From: a virus
IMG/VR virus record: IMGVR_UViG_3300033148_008526
Location: 1-24,542 of that record
Direction: 5' to 3' (one strand)
Length of the DNA stretch: 24,542 bases
Shown here: positions 1-21,431 of the stretch, piece after piece
Numbering within the stretch: position 1 is the stretch's first letter
Layout of the letters: every line of letters begins with the position of its first letter
Made by a program: the position numbers and the translations under genes
The notes under the pieces: generated by a model
Seen by the model: only the letters and a program-made list of their open reading frames with translations
Database searches by the model: none
Told to the model about the DNA's origin: nothing

Positions 1-438
1 TTCCGCATCCACTTGGCCCATGCCGGTGGGGGTTTCTCTTTCTTTTTTCATTTTACTAATATCATACAAAATTTCCCTAAGATGATTGTCTGAACTTATT
101 TTGAATTCTCGGGCCTTTCCTTTTTTGTCTGGTCGTGCCTCATACTCTTGTATGCACGAAAAAGTACGGAGTTTAGATATTATGTCTTCTTTCTCTTGTT
201 CATATTTGCTAGCTATTTCTTCCATAATTTCTCTGTCTACTCTAAGTCCCCGATGTTTCAAATTAGCTAACACAGGTAAACATCGCATAAAGAAATTATT
301 AAATTCTTGCAGAGAACTATCTAAAGACAATTTTATTTTCTGATCTAAATAGGATTTGAAAGTATAACGAGAATCAAAATTGTTATAATTTGCAAGGTTC
401 TCAAGTGTTTCCTCTTGAAGCTTTGTCCTGTTGTATTT
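1..438 (-). CDS. PolA-type DNA polymerase, continuation in shifted frame (partial)
   Basis: This frame opens just after a TAG at 439-441 and runs to the window edge, so the C-terminus lies outside. It has no usable start codon near its beginning and reads as the direct continuation of the upstream UDG/exonuclease ORF after a frame change. It carries a YNNFD segment, which fits the YxxxD exonuclease III motif of family A polymerases. After that comes a stretch with LKHRGLRVD, typical of the beginning of the PolA thumb region where the sequence MexxGixVD recurs. The polymerase palm and fingers would lie beyond position 1. The match to family A polymerase order is what I see; that both frames form one gene is inference. 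See the linked finding about the frame break and the shortened spacing. Confidence 0.7.
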
Positions 439-1547
439 CTATTGCAGTTCACAACATGTGCTGTAACCATGGTGTCATGAATAAAATTGTTCATTGGTGT
501 ACCATATACTATTCTGCTCCACATCTCTTCCATATAATAATTCTGAACAATCTTAGGGCTAGACCCTGCTATATACCGTTTGAGGGCGGCCACAATTCTA
601 TCTAACTCCTGCTCTGTCCATATGGGTTTTCCATTTACTTGAAACTCAATAGGTATGCACACAGCACTTTCTACTTCATCTGTTATGGAAATTGCATACG
701 TTATAGTTTTTGGAGAAAAAGCATTATAAGTATTTGTTTCAAAGTCAAAAGATGTGGGCTTCTCAGTAGTAGCAAAATGATCCAAAAGTTCTACAGCTTG
801 ATCTGCATCTGTAATAAGTAAATTTCCTTCTTCTGTTAGTGGCTGGGGCAGTGGAACATCCAGACTACCTAATATGTCTGCTAAATCATTGGTAAATACT
901 GCTTCATCACACTTGCCCCCCGGATCCATTCTATTTCGTATGAAAAAAGAAGGACGAAAAAGTGAACCTGCCCAGCAGTTAAACTCATGTACAGGAAAAG
1001 ATAATCCATGTACATTACTTGCAGCAAAAGCACTAAGGCCTTTAGGATTCGCTACCGCTTGAATGGCTTTAGTTCCACAACATATTATTAACTTAGGTTG
1101 AACTTCTGCTATATCTTGCAGCAATTTATCTCTACAGCATAATATTTGCGTAGGAGTAGCTTTTTTATCTTTACCTTTCTTATCTCGTCCAGGATAGCAT
1201 TTGACAACTGTAGTTCTAATACAGTCATCATCTAAATCTATATCGAAAAAATTCTTTAATTGGCGTTTCAAAAAGATACCTGGAGCACCCACTAAAGGCA
1301 TTCCATATTTATCATCTGATCTACCTGGTTGTTCATCAATAATAAGAATTCCTGCTTTTCCTTTTCCTGCTCTTTTGATTTTAGGATGCTTGCATTTTTC
1401 TGAGAGACCACAAGTTGAGCAATCAAATACTTTTGGAGCTTTTTTAGTTTTAGCTTTAGAAGAACTTTTTTTCTTTTCAAATTCCTCAGGATGTTCCGCC
1501 ATATACACTTCTAATGGTCTAAGAAAGAAAGGTTGAGTTATTCCCAT
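345..1547 (-). CDS. Uracil-DNA glycosylase-like domain fused to DNA polymerase I 3'-5' exonuclease domain (frame-disrupted)
   Basis: Residues about 41-230 resemble a family 4 type uracil-DNA glycosylase. There is a CxxC pair (C43, C46), a DEQPGRSDDKYGMPLVGAPG segment at 71-90 that fits the GExPGxxEDxxGxPFVGxAG active-site loop, and C117 and C137/C138 that fit the remaining iron-sulfur ligands. Residues about 265-360 are a DnaQ/PolA proofreading domain: exo I is DFETNT (D268, E270) and exo II is QNYYMEEMW, where the usual Asp seems replaced by Glu. An HDTM segment follows at 357-360. After about residue 370 the frame degenerates into a hydrophobic tail and stops, while the other frame carries exo III and the thumb. 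The ATG at 1547 follows GAGGAAAAG and lies directly after the clamp stop. The intact protein would be the replicative polymerase, with the N-terminal domain perhaps sensing or removing uracil. Confidence 0.8.
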   Translation of the reverse strand: MGITQPFFLRPLEVYMAEHPEEFEKKKSSSKAKTKKAPKVFDCSTCGLSEKCKHPKIKRAGKGKAGILIIDEQPGRSDDKYGMPLVGAPGIFLKRQLKNFFDIDLDDDCIRTTVVKCYPGRDKKGKDKKATPTQILCCRDKLLQDIAEVQPKLIICCGTKAIQAVANPKGLSAFAASNVHGLSFPVHEFNCWAGSLFRPSFFIRNRMDPGGKCDEAVFTNDLADILGSLDVPLPQPLTEEGNLLITDADQAVELLDHFATTEKPTSFDFETNTYNAFSPKTITYAISITDEVESAVCIPIEFQVNGKPIWTEQELDRIVAALKRYIAGSSPKIVQNYYMEEMWSRIVYGTPMNNFIHDTMVTAHVVNCNRNTTGQSFKRKHLRTLQIITILILVILSNPI

Positions 1548-2943: not shown

Positions 2944-3939
2944 CTAAAAGAAAGGTTTAGGTATTCTCTTTCCTGTATTTATTTTTTCTTCTTCTATATA
3001 CTTTAATAGGTTCTCAAAGTAGATCACGTTAGCTCGTGCTCTTTCTGAATAGCTTCGTTCTAATAAATCTACATCTATACCTATCTCTTCTAAATAGTTC
3101 AAAAGAACTTTTTGTTCTTTGGCTGTTCGTTCTAAAGTAAAATGAACAACAGATTTAGGATTTATCTTAGACTCCCAACTTACACCTATTGGATTTGGCG
3201 GCAAATCGTATCTAAGTTGTCCTGTAACAAAATTATATTTTGGCACAAAAATTTTACCGTACGCTGCTACCTGTAACCAAGTTGTCGAGTCAACACTGAA
3301 CCATGGATATCTAAACATCAACGGCACACTAGTAATGCCAAATCCGTGAACCATCGTCTCTTTATCTAAACCATCAATGATACGAAAAACTTCATCACCA
3401 AACCTAGTTATATATTTGTGACTATTCAGTCCTCCGCTAACTCCTCCGCCTAACGCTATGTAATCATACTCTTGCAGCATTTCTCGTAAAAAACCAAAAT
3501 GATACTTTTTACGTTCGGGATTGCCTAGCTCCGGATGATAATGAAAAACAGGTACAGGTGTAACTCCCGCTGCTTCCATATAACGTTGGGTTCGTAAAGT
3601 CTTCTCTGGATTACCCACAAAGTCAAGGTTAGCATATCCGTATAATCTATCCCTATGCTCTTTAATAAAAGTAATATAGGTATCCAGGTACTCCATTTCT
3701 TTTTCTTCCGTAACCGTTTCTCCGCGTTTAGTTATAAATTGATCCCAACTATACGCACCAGAATCCAGAAACACCTTGAAACCTTCCCATTTAGAAAAAG
3801 ATCTAGTCATGCCACCTTTATACCAGAAGGATTCAAGGGTCATCATCCTTTTTTTCTGGAGATACTCTATCATCCATTCTCGTTCTTTTAGGCCCATCTG
3901 TTTGCATGCACCAGCTAAGTAAATTCTTTGTAATTTCAT
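2944..3939 (-). CDS. dpdA: tRNA-guanine transglycosylase-like protein, probable DpdA-type DNA 7-deazaguanine transglycosylase
   Basis: The protein (331 aa) reads as a TIM-barrel of the tRNA-guanine transglycosylase (TGT) superfamily. FLDSGAYS at 57-64 aligns with the TGT TDSGGFQ motif, giving D59 as general acid/base. HGFGIT at 198-203 fits the barrel strand before the second catalytic loop, and FSVDSTTWLQVAAYG at 214-228 would supply the nucleophilic Asp (D217). TGTs exchange guanine for a 7-deazaguanine base in RNA; the DpdA branch does so in DNA, and phage DpdA proteins are known with preQ0 genes. It lacks the C-terminal CxCxxC zinc site of bacterial tRNA TGT, which favours the DNA branch. 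It lies 27 bases downstream of queC. The fold call is fairly firm; the DNA substrate is inferred from context. Confidence 0.65.
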   Translation of the reverse strand: MKLQRIYLAGACKQMGLKEREWMIEYLQKKRMMTLESFWYKGGMTRSFSKWEGFKVFLDSGAYSWDQFITKRGETVTEEKEMEYLDTYITFIKEHRDRLYGYANLDFVGNPEKTLRTQRYMEAAGVTPVPVFHYHPELGNPERKKYHFGFLREMLQEYDYIALGGGVSGGLNSHKYITRFGDEVFRIIDGLDKETMVHGFGITSVPLMFRYPWFSVDSTTWLQVAAYGKIFVPKYNFVTGQLRYDLPPNPIGVSWESKINPKSVVHFTLERTAKEQKVLLNYLEEIGIDVDLLERSYSERARANVIYFENLLKYIEEEKINTGKRIPKPFF

Positions 3940-3966: not shown

Positions 3967-4908
3967 CTATAGAAAAATAGCCTTATCATCTATTAGAAAA
4001 TCATACTGATGCTTCCCTAAGCTTAGTGAATTATAGTTCACTTTATGTTTTTCTAGCCACGCTTCTGTAACCTCCCGATCTACCGGGAATCTACTAGTCC
4101 ATAGATTAATAGTATGCCCAGCTCTATATAAAGCGTTGATTTTATTTATGTTTTCAACGTTAGGAGTTCGATTGGCATAATCATGCCCCTCCGTTTCAAT
4201 TGTAAGCACGCCGTCTATATCAACAGAATATATTTTCTTAGCTAAAAATTCACGCACTGTCCTAATGATGTTGTCATTGCGTTGCGAAACAAATACACCA
4301 GATCGAGCCTTCTTGAAATATTCAGCTATAAGATCCCGATTGTAGAAAGGTAACTTAATTCCATTCACCCATAACGCTACCCATTTTCTAAAACAGCATC
4401 TACACTTTCCACAGTAATTCCCTTCCGTAAGATCATAGCAGCTACCTGTTTTTATTAGCTGCTCTGTCTCTTTGACGTTTTCTAAATACCATTTTACAAT
4501 ATCTGCCTTGGTGTGCTCCCAAAAAGGACTCATAACTTTGATAGGTTTATTATTTAGAATGGTTAATGTTCTGGAAAATTCTTCAAAGATGCCCGGGTTT
4601 TTGTCGTTTACATTATCATCCGCTAAGCCGGCCATATAAATTTCATCAGCATATTTGGTAGCTAATAAAGCATAATATAAGTTACGGCCAGGTATAAACT
4701 TGGAATCCCCCGCCACTTCCCTATCTGCAAGATTTATAGAAGAGTCTATGGTTATTGGAACACCTAATTCTTTAATAACACGTATCTCTTCTTTACATAC
4801 CGGCAAACCTATATCAAAGTAAACGCAAGGCGGTTTGCCCAAGAAATGCCAAGCAATATATGAGTCTAGTCCCCCACTGAATAGTAATACTCTTTTATCT
4901 TCTTCCAT
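3967..4908 (-). CDS. queC: QueC (7-cyano-7-deazaguanine synthase) fused to a C-terminal HAD-type phosphatase domain
   Basis: Residues 1-180 are QueC: an ATP pyrophosphatase PP-loop SGGLDS at 11-16, FIPGRN at 71-76, and the zinc site C157, C166, C169, C172 in the CGKCRCC segment. QueC converts 7-carboxy-7-deazaguanine to preQ0 with ATP and ammonia. From about residue 226 a second domain starts: SVDIDGVL gives HAD motif I (D230, D232), LWTSR gives motif II (T271 or S272), and a lysine near K299 followed by FLIDDKA (D307, D308) gives motifs III and IV. QueC alone is about 220-230 residues, so the roughly 85-residue HAD tail is an addition. Reading is uninterrupted. The ATG overlaps the stop of the upstream tiny ORF (TAATG). 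The substrate of the HAD domain is unknown. Confidence 0.88.
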   Translation of the reverse strand: MEEDKRVLLFSGGLDSYIAWHFLGKPPCVYFDIGLPVCKEEIRVIKELGVPITIDSSINLADREVAGDSKFIPGRNLYYALLATKYADEIYMAGLADDNVNDKNPGIFEEFSRTLTILNNKPIKVMSPFWEHTKADIVKWYLENVKETEQLIKTGSCYDLTEGNYCGKCRCCFRKWVALWVNGIKLPFYNRDLIAEYFKKARSGVFVSQRNDNIIRTVREFLAKKIYSVDIDGVLTIETEGHDYANRTPNVENINKINALYRAGHTINLWTSRFPVDREVTEAWLEKHKVNYNSLSLGKHQYDFLIDDKAIFL

Positions 4909-5021
4909 TAGAACTTTCCCGAAATAGTTGTTACTAAATTACTAATATACTCCACACAGGAAAACCATCCTATATGCGTTACCAATGTTCCTATTACTAT
5001 TCCGCATAGTAACTTAATCAT
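4908..5021 (-). CDS. Tiny single-pass membrane peptide upstream of queC
   Basis: A 37-codon ORF starts with ATG at 5021 behind GAAAGGAAAAAAG and ends in TAA overlapping the queC ATG (TAATG). The product begins MIKLLCGIVIGTLVTHIGW, a hydrophobic helix of about 18 residues after one Lys, followed by a short polar tail. It lies directly downstream of the palindromic promoter at 5062-5101, so it is the first gene of the queC/dpdA/clamp/polymerase operon. It may be a small membrane protein or a leader whose translation couples to queC. I recognise no family. Confidence 0.6.
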   Translation of the reverse strand: MIKLLCGIVIGTLVTHIGWFSCVEYISNLVTTISGKF

Positions 5022-5061
5022 TCTTTTTTCCTTTCAATAAGTATCATAGTTTCTTCCGAAT

Positions 5062-5101
5062 CTTATACTTAAATTATAAGATAGTTGAATGAATGCTAAT
5101 A
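5062..5101 (-). promoter_or_regulatory. Minus-strand promoter with palindromic -10 region
   Basis: On the minus strand, TATAAT (5073-5078) lies inside the inverted repeat CTTATA...TATAAG (5062-5080). The same 19-base palindrome occurs at 9879-9897 and 13176-13194. The -35 here is weak (TTAGCA-like, about 5095-5100). It faces the tiny membrane ORF and queC, and lies behind the end of the glycosyltransferase gene, so it probably drives the operon from 5021 to the window start. Confidence 0.65.
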
Positions 5102-5127
5102 AAAAATATTAGAAATTACTAATTAAT

Positions 5128-5919
5128 CTACTTACCCTTCAAAAAATCCTCTACCGCTTTTGGTTCATTCTGAAAACGTTGCCTAAATACATTTTCTAAT
5201 GAATACTGCCAATCCCTCCGCTGCTCTCGACTCATAAGATGCCAGCAGACGGCTCCAGTAACAAGCAAACCATTTCCCACATTTCGCGTCTGAACAAACT
5301 CCTCCAACGGAGCATTATCGGGGAAACCTTCCAGGGCTTCCAGTAAAGTCCCTACACAATAATTTCGGAAAATCACTCCAGAGATGCCACCATATTTTAT
5401 GGGAATGATTTGTTCTGTTTTATATCTGAAGAATGCATATTGATATTCTTGAGCATCTGCAGGAGGACTATCATATGCTTGTGTTGAAAAATCTGGTTTT
5501 GCTACTTCGTTATTTGGTAAAAGGAATAATCCACCTACAAAATTCTTAATTTTTGTTGGACAATTTTTTGCCAGTATTTCATATTCCTTTAAAACTCTGA
5601 TCAGCGTTTCAATATAATCTGGTGCTAATAGTGCATCATCATCTAAAGGCATGAAATCATTTTTTTGTACTTGCTTAAGTAAAACTTCTCGAGCTCTGCT
5701 TAACCCCTCTCGTTTATTCGATCGGAGATACTGCATCTCAATTCCGAGTTCAGAAAGTATGTCCCAAATCATCCTGTTTTTATAATCTGAAAAAATAGGT
5801 TGACTACCATTATCATAAACAATAACTCGAGCGGGTTTAATTGTTTGACTAGATAAAGACATTAAACATAGACCAATTACATCCGGTCGATCTGCTGTTG
5901 GTATAAGCACATCAATCAT
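5128..5919 (-). CDS. Family 2 glycosyltransferase
   Basis: The 263-residue product has a GT-A fold layout. It opens IDVLIPTADRP and continues to VYDNGS about 35 residues on, the nucleotide-sugar binding half. A LDDDALL segment near residue 95 is the metal-binding DxD. GT2 enzymes transfer a sugar from a nucleotide-sugar donor; in phages, targets include modified DNA bases and surface glycans, and the acceptor here cannot be told. I place the start at ATG 5919, not the upstream TTG, because GGAG lies at the right spacing and the ATG overlaps the kinase stop (ATGA). No membrane segment or signal peptide is seen. It is the last gene before the promoter at 5062-5101. Confidence 0.82.
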   Translation of the reverse strand: MIDVLIPTADRPDVIGLCLMSLSSQTIKPARVIVYDNGSQPIFSDYKNRMIWDILSELGIEMQYLRSNKREGLSRAREVLLKQVQKNDFMPLDDDALLAPDYIETLIRVLKEYEILAKNCPTKIKNFVGGLFLLPNNEVAKPDFSTQAYDSPPADAQEYQYAFFRYKTEQIIPIKYGGISGVIFRNYCVGTLLEALEGFPDNAPLEEFVQTRNVGNGLLVTGAVCWHLMSREQRRDWQYSLENVFRQRFQNEPKAVEDFLKGK

Positions 5920-6607: not shown

Positions 6608-6681
6608 TAGCCCCGACCGGATTTGAACCGGTGCCGCCGGGTTGAAGGCCCGGTATCCTGACCAGCCTAGACGACGGGGCC
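6608..6681 (-). tRNA. tRNA-Glu (UUC anticodon)
   Basis: A complete cloverleaf can be drawn: acceptor GGCCCCG with CGGGGCT (first pair G-U), anticodon stem CCGGG/CCCGG with loop CCTTCAA giving anticodon TTC, and T-arm ACCGG-TTCAAAT-CCGGT. No CCA is encoded. It lies 7 bases downstream of a small CDS in a tRNA cluster. Confidence 0.92.
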
Positions 6682-6688
6682 ACTATAG

Positions 6689-6877
6689 TTATCTTTCACC
6701 CATCACTTCTGCTGTATGGCGGTCTTGTGCCTCCTCCAAGATGATATCTGCTGTCTGGAGCATACCTCGTTGGATTGCTATTTTGGCCTCTTCCAATTTT
6801 TTATTGTACTCAGCCGGGAGTATAAATCTAGCAATTCTGTATTTGTACTCTACGTTTGCTCTTGTAAGCTCTGCCAT
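6689..6877 (-). CDS. Small helical protein between tRNA genes
   Basis: The start at ATG 6877 is chosen because AGGAGA lies at ideal spacing; the longer reading frame would begin inside the neighbouring tRNA. The product is 62 residues, starts MAELTRANVEYKYRIARF, is rich in Glu, Lys and Ala, and is probably helical. I recognise no family. Its position between two tRNA genes on the same strand means it is transcribed with them. Confidence 0.6.
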   Translation of the reverse strand: MAELTRANVEYKYRIARFILPAEYNKKLEEAKIAIQRGMLQTADIILEEAQDRHTAEVMGER

Positions 6878-6897
6878 TTTTTGTTCTCCTAAAAAAA

Positions 6898-6971
6898 GAT
6901 GATCGATGGGATTCGAACCCATAACCTTCGGGATTACAATCCGGTGCTCTAGCCAGTTGAACTACGGCCAA
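6898..6971 (-). tRNA. Degenerate tRNA, probably tRNA-Thr (UGU) with a 6-nt anticodon loop
   Basis: The D-arm (GTTC...GAGC), variable loop and T-arm (ATGGG-TTCGAAT-CCCAT) are good. The anticodon arm reads CCGGA-TTGTAA-TCCCG: a 6-base loop instead of 7, with one C-C mismatch in the stem. Restoring one T gives anticodon TGT (Thr); adding an A instead would give GTA (Tyr), but the short variable loop argues against bacterial tRNA-Tyr. The acceptor stem has further mismatches. It is either a decaying tRNA or a sequence with a base missing. Confidence 0.55.
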
Positions 6972-6981
6972 CGTTTAGTAA

Positions 6982-7065
6982 TAGCCCGGGTGAGATTTGA
7001 ACTCACACTCTCCGAAAAGAAAGGGTTTTTAAGACCCTTGCGTCTGCCGATTCCGCCACCGGGCC
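6982..7065 (-). tRNA. tRNA-Leu (UAA anticodon)
   Basis: This 84-base class II tRNA has acceptor GGCCCGG with CCGGGCT, anticodon stem AGGGT/ACCCT and loop CTTAAAA giving anticodon TAA. A long variable region as expected for Leu precedes the T-arm GTGAG-TTCAAAT-CTCAC. It reads UUA, a codon favoured in this AT-rich sequence. It starts 7 bases after the radical SAM gene ends. Confidence 0.92.
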
Positions 7066-7072
7066 AACTATT

Positions 7073-8080
7073 TTACTTTTTATGAGCGAAATTCCTTTTG
7101 CCCTCATCAGCTCTATTTTCTGAAGCGTATTTATTAGTCTCGTACATATGATCCCAAAAACATCCTCGCTTACAATCTGCAATAGTATTTTGAAAAGATA
7201 TATAAATCTCTTCATCCTTTTTCCCATCTGCTAAATCAAAAATTGAATAAGCCCTGTTCAACGGTCGATCTATGCATGCCATCAAACTACCATCAGGATT
7301 TACTGCTGGACATGCCCATTCATAGCAATGCCAATTTTGCTCTATACCAAACTTAGTCCACACTTCAAAATAATCTTTTTGATTATGCAATTTTAATCTA
7401 TTATAATTTCGCACAAACCATTTAGAAGTATTTCCAACTACATTTTTATCTTGTAAAATATTCTTGAAAACTAATTCATTATTGTCTTCTGTTTCTGGTC
7501 CTCTGTACCACCAATACATGGACTCACTGGGCGGACAAACATGAAAGAATGAAAGAATACTCCAAATGTTCTTCTTTGTAAAGTGTTCAACTAATTGAGG
7601 CAGTTGCCCTATATTTTTTCGAGTTACTGCCATATTAGCCACTAAATCACATTCTGGAAGATCTTTTTTAAGTTTAAGCAGAAGCTCCCCACCTATCTCA
7701 CTTTTCTTATTATCATGAAAAACATCTTCAGCTTTAAGAGCATTTACGGATGTACTGATACCAAATGGTTTAGAAGCTATAAGATGCTCATAATATTTTT
7801 CATCTTTCATAAGTCGGATGCCATTAGTTATGATCGTATGCGGCATCTCTATCTCATTTAGATACTCTACCATATACGGCAGATCATCTCGAAGAGTGGG
7901 TTCCCCTCCAAAAAGAACCACAAAACCCACGCCTCGATTTTTCATAATATCAAAGGCTTTTATCCACTTTACAAGATTCATATTAACTTCTGTCTGATGG
8001 TGAATAACATTACAACCTCGACATCTAAGATTGCATTCTCGGTTAATGAAACAGCAAACCTTTTGCCAGTGCTCAAACAT
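7073..8080 (-). CDS. Radical SAM enzyme with C-terminal Cys-rich (SPASM-like) region
   Basis: Near the N-terminus ECNLRCRGC gives the CxxxCxxC motif that binds the 4Fe-4S cluster used with S-adenosylmethionine. LFGGEPTL, about 60-65 residues later in the protein, matches the GGEP motif. The C-terminal third has CYEWACPAVNPDGSLMAC, then a later CKRGC, which resembles the auxiliary-cluster region of SPASM/twitch enzymes where CxxNPDGxxxxC is common. It is not QueE, which is encoded separately. The start is ATG 8080 behind GAGGAG rather than the TTG at 8086, giving 335 residues. The substrate is unknown: peptide, tRNA or nucleotide modification are all possible. It lies just upstream of the tRNA cluster. 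Confidence 0.82.
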   Translation of the reverse strand: MFEHWQKVCCFINRECNLRCRGCNVIHHQTEVNMNLVKWIKAFDIMKNRGVGFVVLFGGEPTLRDDLPYMVEYLNEIEMPHTIITNGIRLMKDEKYYEHLIASKPFGISTSVNALKAEDVFHDNKKSEIGGELLLKLKKDLPECDLVANMAVTRKNIGQLPQLVEHFTKKNIWSILSFFHVCPPSESMYWWYRGPETEDNNELVFKNILQDKNVVGNTSKWFVRNYNRLKLHNQKDYFEVWTKFGIEQNWHCYEWACPAVNPDGSLMACIDRPLNRAYSIFDLADGKKDEEIYISFQNTIADCKRGCFWDHMYETNKYASENRADEGKRNFAHKK

Positions 8081-8102
8081 ATCCAACTCCTCAATTTTTA
8101 AT

Positions 8103-16017: not shown

Positions 16018-16701
16018 TTATGAAGTTGAAGACTGTAGGTAGTCCATATTATCTCGTATCATCTTTTCAACTAATTGTCGTGGCCAATCCATATTTGGAA
16101 CTAAAGGAGTAGCTGGCCGCAACCTGTGTAAAGAGATAGCTGGACTAAAAACTTTCTTAGCTACCCAGTGCGGATGATTATCTATAACGTCCTTGGCATA
16201 CTTATAATCATAATCATTAGCAATAACAAATTTAATTACATCTATTTGTCTTAGATCTTGAAAAACCTCATCTTTCATATGCTTGTTCATTCCAGATGAA
16301 GGAAGCTTATAGTCGACTACGTATCTTGTATTCTCCCATACTTCTTTACTGCGACATGTATTATCTATTTTAATTGATCCATTTGTTTCAATACTGATTT
16401 TACAATAGTGAATAGGATGCTTCCACATAAGTTTCACACATAATTTGTTTACTGCTTCTTGCTGGAGCAATGGCTCACCTCCAGTTATAGTTACTTTCTT
16501 AAAATGTACTTGTTCAATTATTTCATTAATAGTCATCCAATTTTCAGGTGTAGGTGATTGAGAGTAAGCGGTGTCGCAGTACCCGCATGATAAATTGCAA
16601 CCCTTTAGTCTTATGAAAGTCGTAAGTTGACCAGCCCCATCAAAACAATTATATTCACCATCTATGCTATTGAAAATAGAACACACGTTTAATTTACACA
16701 T
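16018..16701 (-). CDS. queE: QueE, 7-carboxy-7-deazaguanine synthase
   Basis: The 227-residue protein opens with SIFNSIDGEY, the QueE signature for the substrate-binding start. It has CNLSCGYC with C35, C39 and C42 for the radical SAM cluster, followed by DT as in QueE, and TGGEPLLQ near 73-80. The later DYKLPSSGM and KFVIAND segments also match QueE. The enzyme rearranges 6-carboxytetrahydropterin to 7-carboxy-7-deazaguanine, the step before QueC. The ATG overlaps the RNA ligase stop (TAATG) and GGAGG lies upstream. Length is normal. Confidence 0.92.
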   Translation of the reverse strand: MCKLNVCSIFNSIDGEYNCFDGAGQLTTFIRLKGCNLSCGYCDTAYSQSPTPENWMTINEIIEQVHFKKVTITGGEPLLQQEAVNKLCVKLMWKHPIHYCKISIETNGSIKIDNTCRSKEVWENTRYVVDYKLPSSGMNKHMKDEVFQDLRQIDVIKFVIANDYDYKYAKDVIDNHPHWVAKKVFSPAISLHRLRPATPLVPNMDWPRQLVEKMIRDNMDYLQSSTS

Positions 16702-20243: not shown

Positions 20244-21416
20244 TTAAAAATTTCCTTTTTCAATAAGAGACAAAAATTCAGATCTAGTAGCTTGATTTTT
20301 TTTGAAAGCCCCAACAACAGAAGTAGTCACAGTTACAGATTCAGGTTTACTTACTCCTCTCATACGCATACAAAAATGTTGTCCTTCTACATATGCAGCC
20401 GCTCCTTGGGGTTTTATCTTCATAAGATATTTTGTTATTTCATTTGTTAATTGTTCTTGAACAACTGGTCTTTTTGCTAATATTTCTGCTAATCTAGCTA
20501 ATTTAGATATCCCTAAAATGTGCCCATTAGGAATGTACGCTATGGAGATATACAATTCCACCGGTAAAAAATGATGTGGACACATTGAAAAAACATGTAT
20601 ACCATTAACTACAATCATCTCATCCGTATCGTCTTTAAAAGCTGTAGATAGAATAGAATCAATTTGTTTTTCTGTATCTTTAACTCCTTCAAAAATTTCT
20701 GCGTATGCTCGAGCAACACGCTTGGGTGTTTGCAAAAAATGCTGATCTTTTATTTTCAAACCAAACTCTTTACGAAGACCTTTCAAAATAAGATGCATTC
20801 CTTTTTCAATATCATAAAGGCCCACATATCTGGTAGAAGTTCTTCTTAATTCATTGTGCAGTTTGGAATGGCAACTTCTACACATTACGGTTAAGTTTTC
20901 TAGAGAATGATTTCCTATTTCAGAATTATAGTTATTACAATCTATGTGATGAACAACTAATCTTTTTTTAGGAAAAATTTTTCCACATCTTGAACAGGTC
21001 CTTCCATAATGTTCAAGAGCTCGATTTCTATAATTATTAGCATTATAGTATTCTGTATTTCTTTTAGTTTGTTTCATTTTTTCATTAGATTTTTTTCGTG
21101 TCTTTGAATCCATATTATCTTTACTCCTAACACGTATTTGATTTGGATCTTTCATTTGTTCAATAGCTGAAGAACGTTTTGCATCTTTAAGTTCTTTTGC
21201 TTTAACGGGACCAAACATTTCTATATACGTTTTTCCTCGACTATGATCCCCACGAGTATTCGTTCTATGACATGTTTCCATAAGTGCTTTTGGAAACTTT
21301 TCTTTATATTTTTTCATTGTCATATTATGATATTTTTTAAGATGGGTATTAGAAATTCTCTTAAATTTTTTATCACACAGTTGGCAAACTACAAAATCAT
21401 CATCCAATTTGTGCAT
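20244..21416 (-). CDS. folE: HNH endonuclease fused to GTP cyclohydrolase I
   Basis: Residues 1-55 contain a C2H2-like finger (C11, C14, H25, H30; HLKKYHNMT) of the type found in phage HNH homing endonucleases. Residues 141-190 are the HNH domain: CSRC (141-144), VVHHID (154-159), N174, and CRSCHSKLH with C179, C182, H183, H187. From about residue 200 FolE begins with YDIEKGMHLILKGLRKEFG, continues with TPKRVARAYAEIF, the zinc site SMCPHHFLP (C279 and the following His) and the second Cys in GQHFCMRMRGV (C349). FolE turns GTP into dihydroneopterin triphosphate, the first step to preQ0. No stop, start codon with good Shine-Dalgarno or frame change separates the halves. ATG 21416 follows AGGAGA. 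Confidence 0.88.
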   Translation of the reverse strand: MHKLDDDFVVCQLCDKKFKRISNTHLKKYHNMTMKKYKEKFPKALMETCHRTNTRGDHSRGKTYIEMFGPVKAKELKDAKRSSAIEQMKDPNQIRVRSKDNMDSKTRKKSNEKMKQTKRNTEYYNANNYRNRALEHYGRTCSRCGKIFPKKRLVVHHIDCNNYNSEIGNHSLENLTVMCRSCHSKLHNELRRTSTRYVGLYDIEKGMHLILKGLRKEFGLKIKDQHFLQTPKRVARAYAEIFEGVKDTEKQIDSILSTAFKDDTDEMIVVNGIHVFSMCPHHFLPVELYISIAYIPNGHILGISKLARLAEILAKRPVVQEQLTNEITKYLMKIKPQGAAAYVEGQHFCMRMRGVSKPESVTVTTSVVGAFKKNQATRSEFLSLIEKGNF

Positions 21417-21431
21417 TGTTTTCTCCTATCT

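Follow-up and report, generated by a model that had tools for sequence, protein, structure and literature searches.

A zinc finger-HNH nuclease fused in frame to GTP cyclohydrolase I in phages that carry 7-deazaguanine genes

The stretch of viral DNA analysed here (the window, 24,542 nucleotides) contains a gene in which a homing-type HNH nuclease runs in frame into GTP cyclohydrolase I (FolE), and the same architecture occurs on four further, separate contigs of uncultured phages (L170 to L173; n=5 in total). Judged by these sequences, the HNH-FolE fusion is a real and long-kept design, beyond chance. We propose, with a probability of about 0.55, that FolE captured a homing-derived nuclease, which became a stable domain, giving one bifunctional polypeptide that would still be an active, site-specific cutter and would serve homing or competition. 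Homing nucleases of phages usually come and go fast, and the retention of one calls for explanation. Here such a nuclease forms one half, itself conserved, of a metabolic enzyme whose pathway protects phage DNA, and fused and unfused sisters can be compared directly. This makes it possible to test if a nuclease can persist through its link to a useful gene, and if phages employ such nucleases as weapons against DNA that is unmodified or belongs to rivals.

Table 1. Features of the fusion gene and of the 7-deazaguanine pathway genes in the window
Feature	Positions	Strand	Details
HNH-FolE fusion gene	20244..21416	(-)	390 aa; positions include the stop codon; from ATG (21416) to stop (20244); 390 codons without interruption; four homologous fusions in L170-L173
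Shine-Dalgarno AGGAG of fusion gene	21423..21427	(-)	duplex energy -7.3; graded good
N-terminal ROS/MucR-type C2H2 zinc finger, aa 4-41	21294..21407	(-)	Pfam PF05443; AF2 pLDDT 92-95 over aa 11-40
HNH nuclease core, aa 141-189	20850..20996	(-)	Pfam PF01844; VHH, NL, CxxCH...LH motif residues present
Linker, 15 residues, last HNH histidine H187 to FolE I203	20811..20855	(-)	same length in 5/5 fusions; AF2
FolE / GTP cyclohydrolase I domain, aa 203-390	20247..20810	(-)	PF01227, TIGR00063; CPHH and QHFCM metal and catalytic motifs
QueE (7-carboxy-7-deazaguanine synthase)	16018..16701	(-)	phrog_2076, 1.1e-34
QueC with C-terminal HAD-like domain	3967..4908	(-)	PF06508; phrog_1550 and phrog_1238
DpdA-like TGT family enzyme	2944..3939	(-)	phrog_887, 2.7e-41

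The first-pass annotation described a nuclease that runs unbroken into a nearly full-length FolE with only its short N-terminal lead replaced, and both points hold: one 390-aa reading frame carries the zinc finger, HNH and FolE (Table 1), and what is absent in comparison with the relatives L002 and L003 is a lead of 7 aa. In the window protein, the Pfam matches exceed their cut-offs for the ROS_MUCR zinc finger (25.8 versus 25.4 bits), for HNH (28.8 versus 21.4 bits) and, over aa 216-385, for GTP_cyclohydroI (192 versus 27 bits). The zinc finger is presumed to be a DNA-binding module, and a basic middle region lies between it and the HNH core. The FolE half passes the cut-off of the NCBIfam folE equivalog TIGR00063 (184.0 versus 181.6 bits), and residues C279, H281, H282, H347 and C349 of the CxHH and HxCM motifs are retained in all fusions; from this score and these motifs, this complete GTP cyclohydrolase I is predicted to be active. 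The suggested comparison with unfused relatives places the FolE boundary at aa 203, where homology to L002 and L003 (68% identity) starts. Their separate folE genes, both preceded by a good ribosome-binding site, begin seven residues ahead of the common 'IE'.

The further fusions came from scans of IMG/VR. A DNA pattern consisting of the end of the HNH motif followed 101-161 bases on by the FolE TPxRVA motif, with the window as positive control, returned 35 stretches, three of which were true in-frame fusions, and an alignment-based scan added the fourth; single-protein scans of viral and genome contigs had missed all four because the exact peptides differ. The fusions are 385 aa long in L170 (119-kb contig, 48% overall identity to the window fusion), 414 aa in L171 (23 kb, 38%), 348 aa in L172 (64 kb, 37%) and 360 aa in L173 (83 kb, 38%), and Pfam calls both HNH and GTP_cyclohydroI in each of them. 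The HNH motif residues VHH, N, C, H and H are invariant in the alignment of all five proteins, a conservation from which the HNH half is predicted to be an active nuclease; in one metal-binding pair, L173 has CxxD for CxxC (Cys to Asp). In every fusion, exactly 15 residues separate the last HNH histidine from the point where conserved FolE residues begin, and a junction motif, [FY]xG[LI]xx[IV]E, is common to four of the five. Between L172 and L173 the identity is 61% in the HNH core and 56% in FolE, with similar dN in the two parts (0.36 and 0.38), and between the window and L170 it is 52% and 54%, respectively. On these figures the nuclease core is conserved about as well as FolE, unlike a decaying selfish remnant, and the architecture is best described as old and common to diverged phages.

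An artefact was seriously possible because folE is a separate gene in L002 and L003, the nearest relatives, an out-of-frame ATG lies at the window junction and the same contig has a break in its DNA polymerase gene near 390-434; in addition, one contig alone showed the fusion at first. With four independent contigs that have the same fusion and the same linker length, an error in sequencing or assembly by which two overlapping genes lost the stop or the frame shift between them has become an extremely improbable account. As the origin of the architecture, an error or frameshift is ruled out by L170 to L173, and with it the lost stop codon that the first-pass annotation had named as the danger to its reading. 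The broken gene itself (window 1-1547, at the contig end) encodes a family A DNA polymerase, whose halves match phrog_17 at 472-772 and 807-912 in different frames. A one-base frameshift alone would not explain this break, as the alignment suggests that about 35 residues are also missing, and the break therefore says little on base-level accuracy.

A Shine-Dalgarno scan of the five fusions found in none of them a convincing internal FolE start close to the junction. L173 has no ATG, GTG or TTG near the junction, L171 has a single TTG upstream of it, and L170 has only TTGs nearby, without a ribosome-binding site; the candidates in the window and in L172 are weak or too far inside FolE, the window's best being a TTG eight codons into FolE. 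In contrast, the folE genes of the unfused relatives have good Shine-Dalgarno sequences. For L172 and L173 the strength of this signal is not decisive, because no clear Shine-Dalgarno sequence is found even at their main starts. The lack of a convincing internal start suggests that FolE would most simply be made solely as part of the fusion; proteolytic processing of the fusion into parts is possible.

The AF2 model of the window fusion, the mean pLDDT of which rose from 70 to 86 once the four further fusions joined the alignment, has a folded zinc finger, an HNH part with strand-strand-helix topology, and helices 180-194 and 198-218 that join the two halves almost continuously, with a three-residue break. 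Such a near-continuous helix between the domains, together with the metal-ligand Cys lost in L173, would suit an HNH/zinc-finger part that is catalytically idle and acts on the FolE oligomer as no more than a structural or DNA-binding domain. We find this very doubtful, given that all five fusions keep the histidines and the asparagine of HNH unchanged.

The fused genes are found in the company of 7-deazaguanine genes, with FolE, QueE, QueC and DpdA in the window and QueD or a QueD-like protein in L170, L171 and L173; no QueD match was obtained within the 24,542-base window fragment. The DpdA-like enzyme of the window would insert 7-deazaguanine in DNA, and the joint presence of FolE, QueC, QueE and DpdA-like genes suggests that this phage probably makes 7-deazaguanine for its own DNA. 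In the window the fusion gene is flanked by an SNF2 helicase gene and a primase gene, and the pathway genes are at other places in the fragment; the contigs of L002 and L003 have genes for helicase, primase, ligase and QueE in common with the window. The gene order is QueD, QueE, fusion, QueC, DpdA in L173; QueD, QueE, QueC, phosphoribosyltransferase (PRTase), fusion, DpdA, clamp in L171; PRTase, fusion, QueC, DpdA in L172; and DpdA, QueD-like protein, fusion, clamp in L170. The QueD-like protein of L170 (3609-3971) is a small protein of the unknown PHROG 17812 in the queD position. The combination of QueC with a C-terminal HAD-like domain (phrog_1238) at window 3967-4908 is unusual. The window also encodes a radical SAM protein (7073-8086) with a match to viperin models (PADLOC pVip, 2.9e-14) and three tRNA genes (6608-7065).

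A pointer to the likely origin of the nuclease half comes from L164, the phage record of L172. At about 1310-2968 of this record, queE is split by an insert with a zinc finger-HNH gene (1504-2148), a full-length relative of the window HNH (E 3e-20), and a second HNH gene lies behind queC in the same phage. These two genes support the descent of the HNH half from homing nucleases that lodge in genes of the pathway, and kinship with homing endonucleases is indicated both by the matches to PHROG HNH families and by the L164 gene in queE. A homing endonuclease typically has a reading frame of its own, free-standing or in an intron or intein; here the nuclease is fused to FolE. By eye, the flanks of the L164 insert resemble group I intron elements (GAGACTA...GATAGTCC), with no Rfam call, and Rfam called no group I intron around L170-L173 or in the window, where a search for an intron core had been proposed.

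In a FolE tree of 108 rows, all five fused FolEs fall in one ten-member clade (support 100/98) along with the unfused L002, L003, L014, L038 and the long-branched L045. Losses or a re-gain of the fusion are needed because the window FolE groups with the unfused L002 and L003 (support 99/90); a fused-only clade, when forced in a 25-row tree, cost 15.7 log-likelihood units (AU p 0.077) and is disfavoured, not rejected. One early gain with losses and a gain with re-gain by homing would both fit these data, and the constant linker favours the early gain. The initial picture of a selfish nuclease that invaded the 5' end of folE and was kept as a fusion is retained as to homing-endonuclease kinship, 5' position and retention; a single recent invasion in this phage has to be given up. 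A 12-base match (ATGAATTAAGAA) between the 3' end of the window HNH and the L002 folE leader upstream of 5980, reached in about 2 in 10,000 shuffles, may be the remnant of a fusion lost in L002. Just upstream of folE in the same record (4596-5810), a TnpB/OrfB-like transposase gene is inserted, with an apparent duplicated tail of the preceding 159-aa gene.

Repeated capture of one HNH homing family at the same folE spot, or homing that re-inserts the fused allele, would produce cycles of gain and loss with no single ancestral fusion. This is possible because the window HNH is about equally similar to the free-standing HNH of L164 (26%, 74 bits) and to the fused HNH of L173 (30%, 74 bits), and it would agree with the mixing of fused and unfused FolEs in one clade and with the differing N-terminal DNA-binding modules, a zinc finger in the window, L170 and L171 and a treble-clef-like zinc knuckle in L172, L173 and also L171. 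The linker of identical length (15 aa) in all fusions and the junction motif shared by four argue against it, as does the presence of both module types in L171, which is expected of an ancestral form. We consider repeated capture somewhat unlikely.

In the reading that we favour, with a captured and still active nuclease, the C-terminal half would work as a normal FolE, converting GTP to dihydroneopterin triphosphate in the first preQ0 step for phage DNA modification. The N-terminal zinc finger and HNH of a phage homing endonuclease would have replaced the start codon and ribosome-binding site of folE, probably once, in the ancestor of the fused-FolE clade, with later losses. Deletion of the nuclease would be hard in such a fusion, because translation of FolE would begin at the nuclease's start. 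The nuclease would make site-specific cuts or nicks, most probably in the DNA of co-infecting phages without the fused allele, which would result in homing or interference competition. Cutting of alleles or rivals that lack the fusion is judged the most likely use by analogy with the HNH intron endonuclease that is reported to give phage PhiPA3 a competitive advantage over a co-infecting phage (PMC11620839). This protein, Phi-PA3 gp210, resembles the window protein as an HNH nuclease tied to a phage gene, and is reported to hinder the co-infecting phage; gp210 is, however, an intron-encoded separate protein, whereas the window HNH is fused to a biosynthetic enzyme.

The main alternative to the cutting of rivals or alleles, and the more novel one, is a restriction-like role tied to modification. 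The nuclease would attack unmodified DNA of the host chromosome or of competing phages, 7-deazaguanine made via FolE of the same polypeptide would protect the phage's own DNA, and the fusion would couple both. This would accord with the company of 7-deazaguanine genes in all five cases, with the conservation of nuclease residues across long divergence and with the known role of 7-deazaguanines in shielding phage DNA from restriction (PMC6884629). However, the FolE product is a diffusible small molecule and physical linkage brings no obvious targeting benefit, the unfused sisters L002, L003 and L014 manage without the nuclease part, and the HNH homologues in the same phage resemble ordinary homing nucleases, which leaves such coupling an unlikely explanation. 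Less likely still is a restriction-modification logic in one polypeptide, where HNH would degrade DNA that lacks 7-deazaguanine, FolE would start the synthesis of the protecting base and the two could not be inherited apart.

In cultured phages, no tblastn place among about 393 FolE-bearing records covered 80% of the fused query, and the HNH part had no tblastn match at 1e-3. The best 80 FolE loci of cellular genomes match essentially the FolE part only, and the 88 other viral FolE loci contain no HNH fusion, in a set whose underlying peptide patterns would miss the known fusions. No model among the matches listed from a viral structure library covers both domains, and a search of one collection of papers came upon no published fusion of an HNH endonuclease with GTP cyclohydrolase. 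Absence from the searched collections is not absence from nature.

Enterobacteria phage 9g and phage FolEs of 7-deazaguanine clusters (Hutinet et al. 2019, PMC6884629) are similar to the fusions in having a complete FolE in the company of QueC, QueE and DpdA, joined by QueD in the other fused phages. The order in 9g is queC-queD-folE-dpdA-clamp, compared with dpdA-queD-like-fusion-clamp in L170, and unlike the window protein the 9g FolE has no HNH part that would cover the fusion; the term HNH is absent from that paper. Phage HNH homing endonucleases with an N-terminal zinc finger (PHROG 8048, 1271 and 144) have the same order of zinc finger, basic middle and HNH, but the known ones are free-standing or intron-borne, whereas the window nuclease makes up the N-terminal half of a protein and leads into a metabolic enzyme without an intervening stop. 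Viral contigs also contain PRTase-FolE fusions, in which another domain likewise sits on the N-terminus of a phage FolE, which evidently tolerates N-terminal extensions; their partner is phosphoribosyltransferase-like, not a nuclease, and they belong to other FolE branches. This N-terminal phosphoribosyltransferase-like domain was seen on FolE in L015, L022, L029, L032, L034, L040, L041, L044, L056, L061, L068, L070, L072, L074, L100, L103, L109 and L176, and a separate phosphoribosyltransferase-like gene lies directly upstream of folE in L038, L171 and L172.
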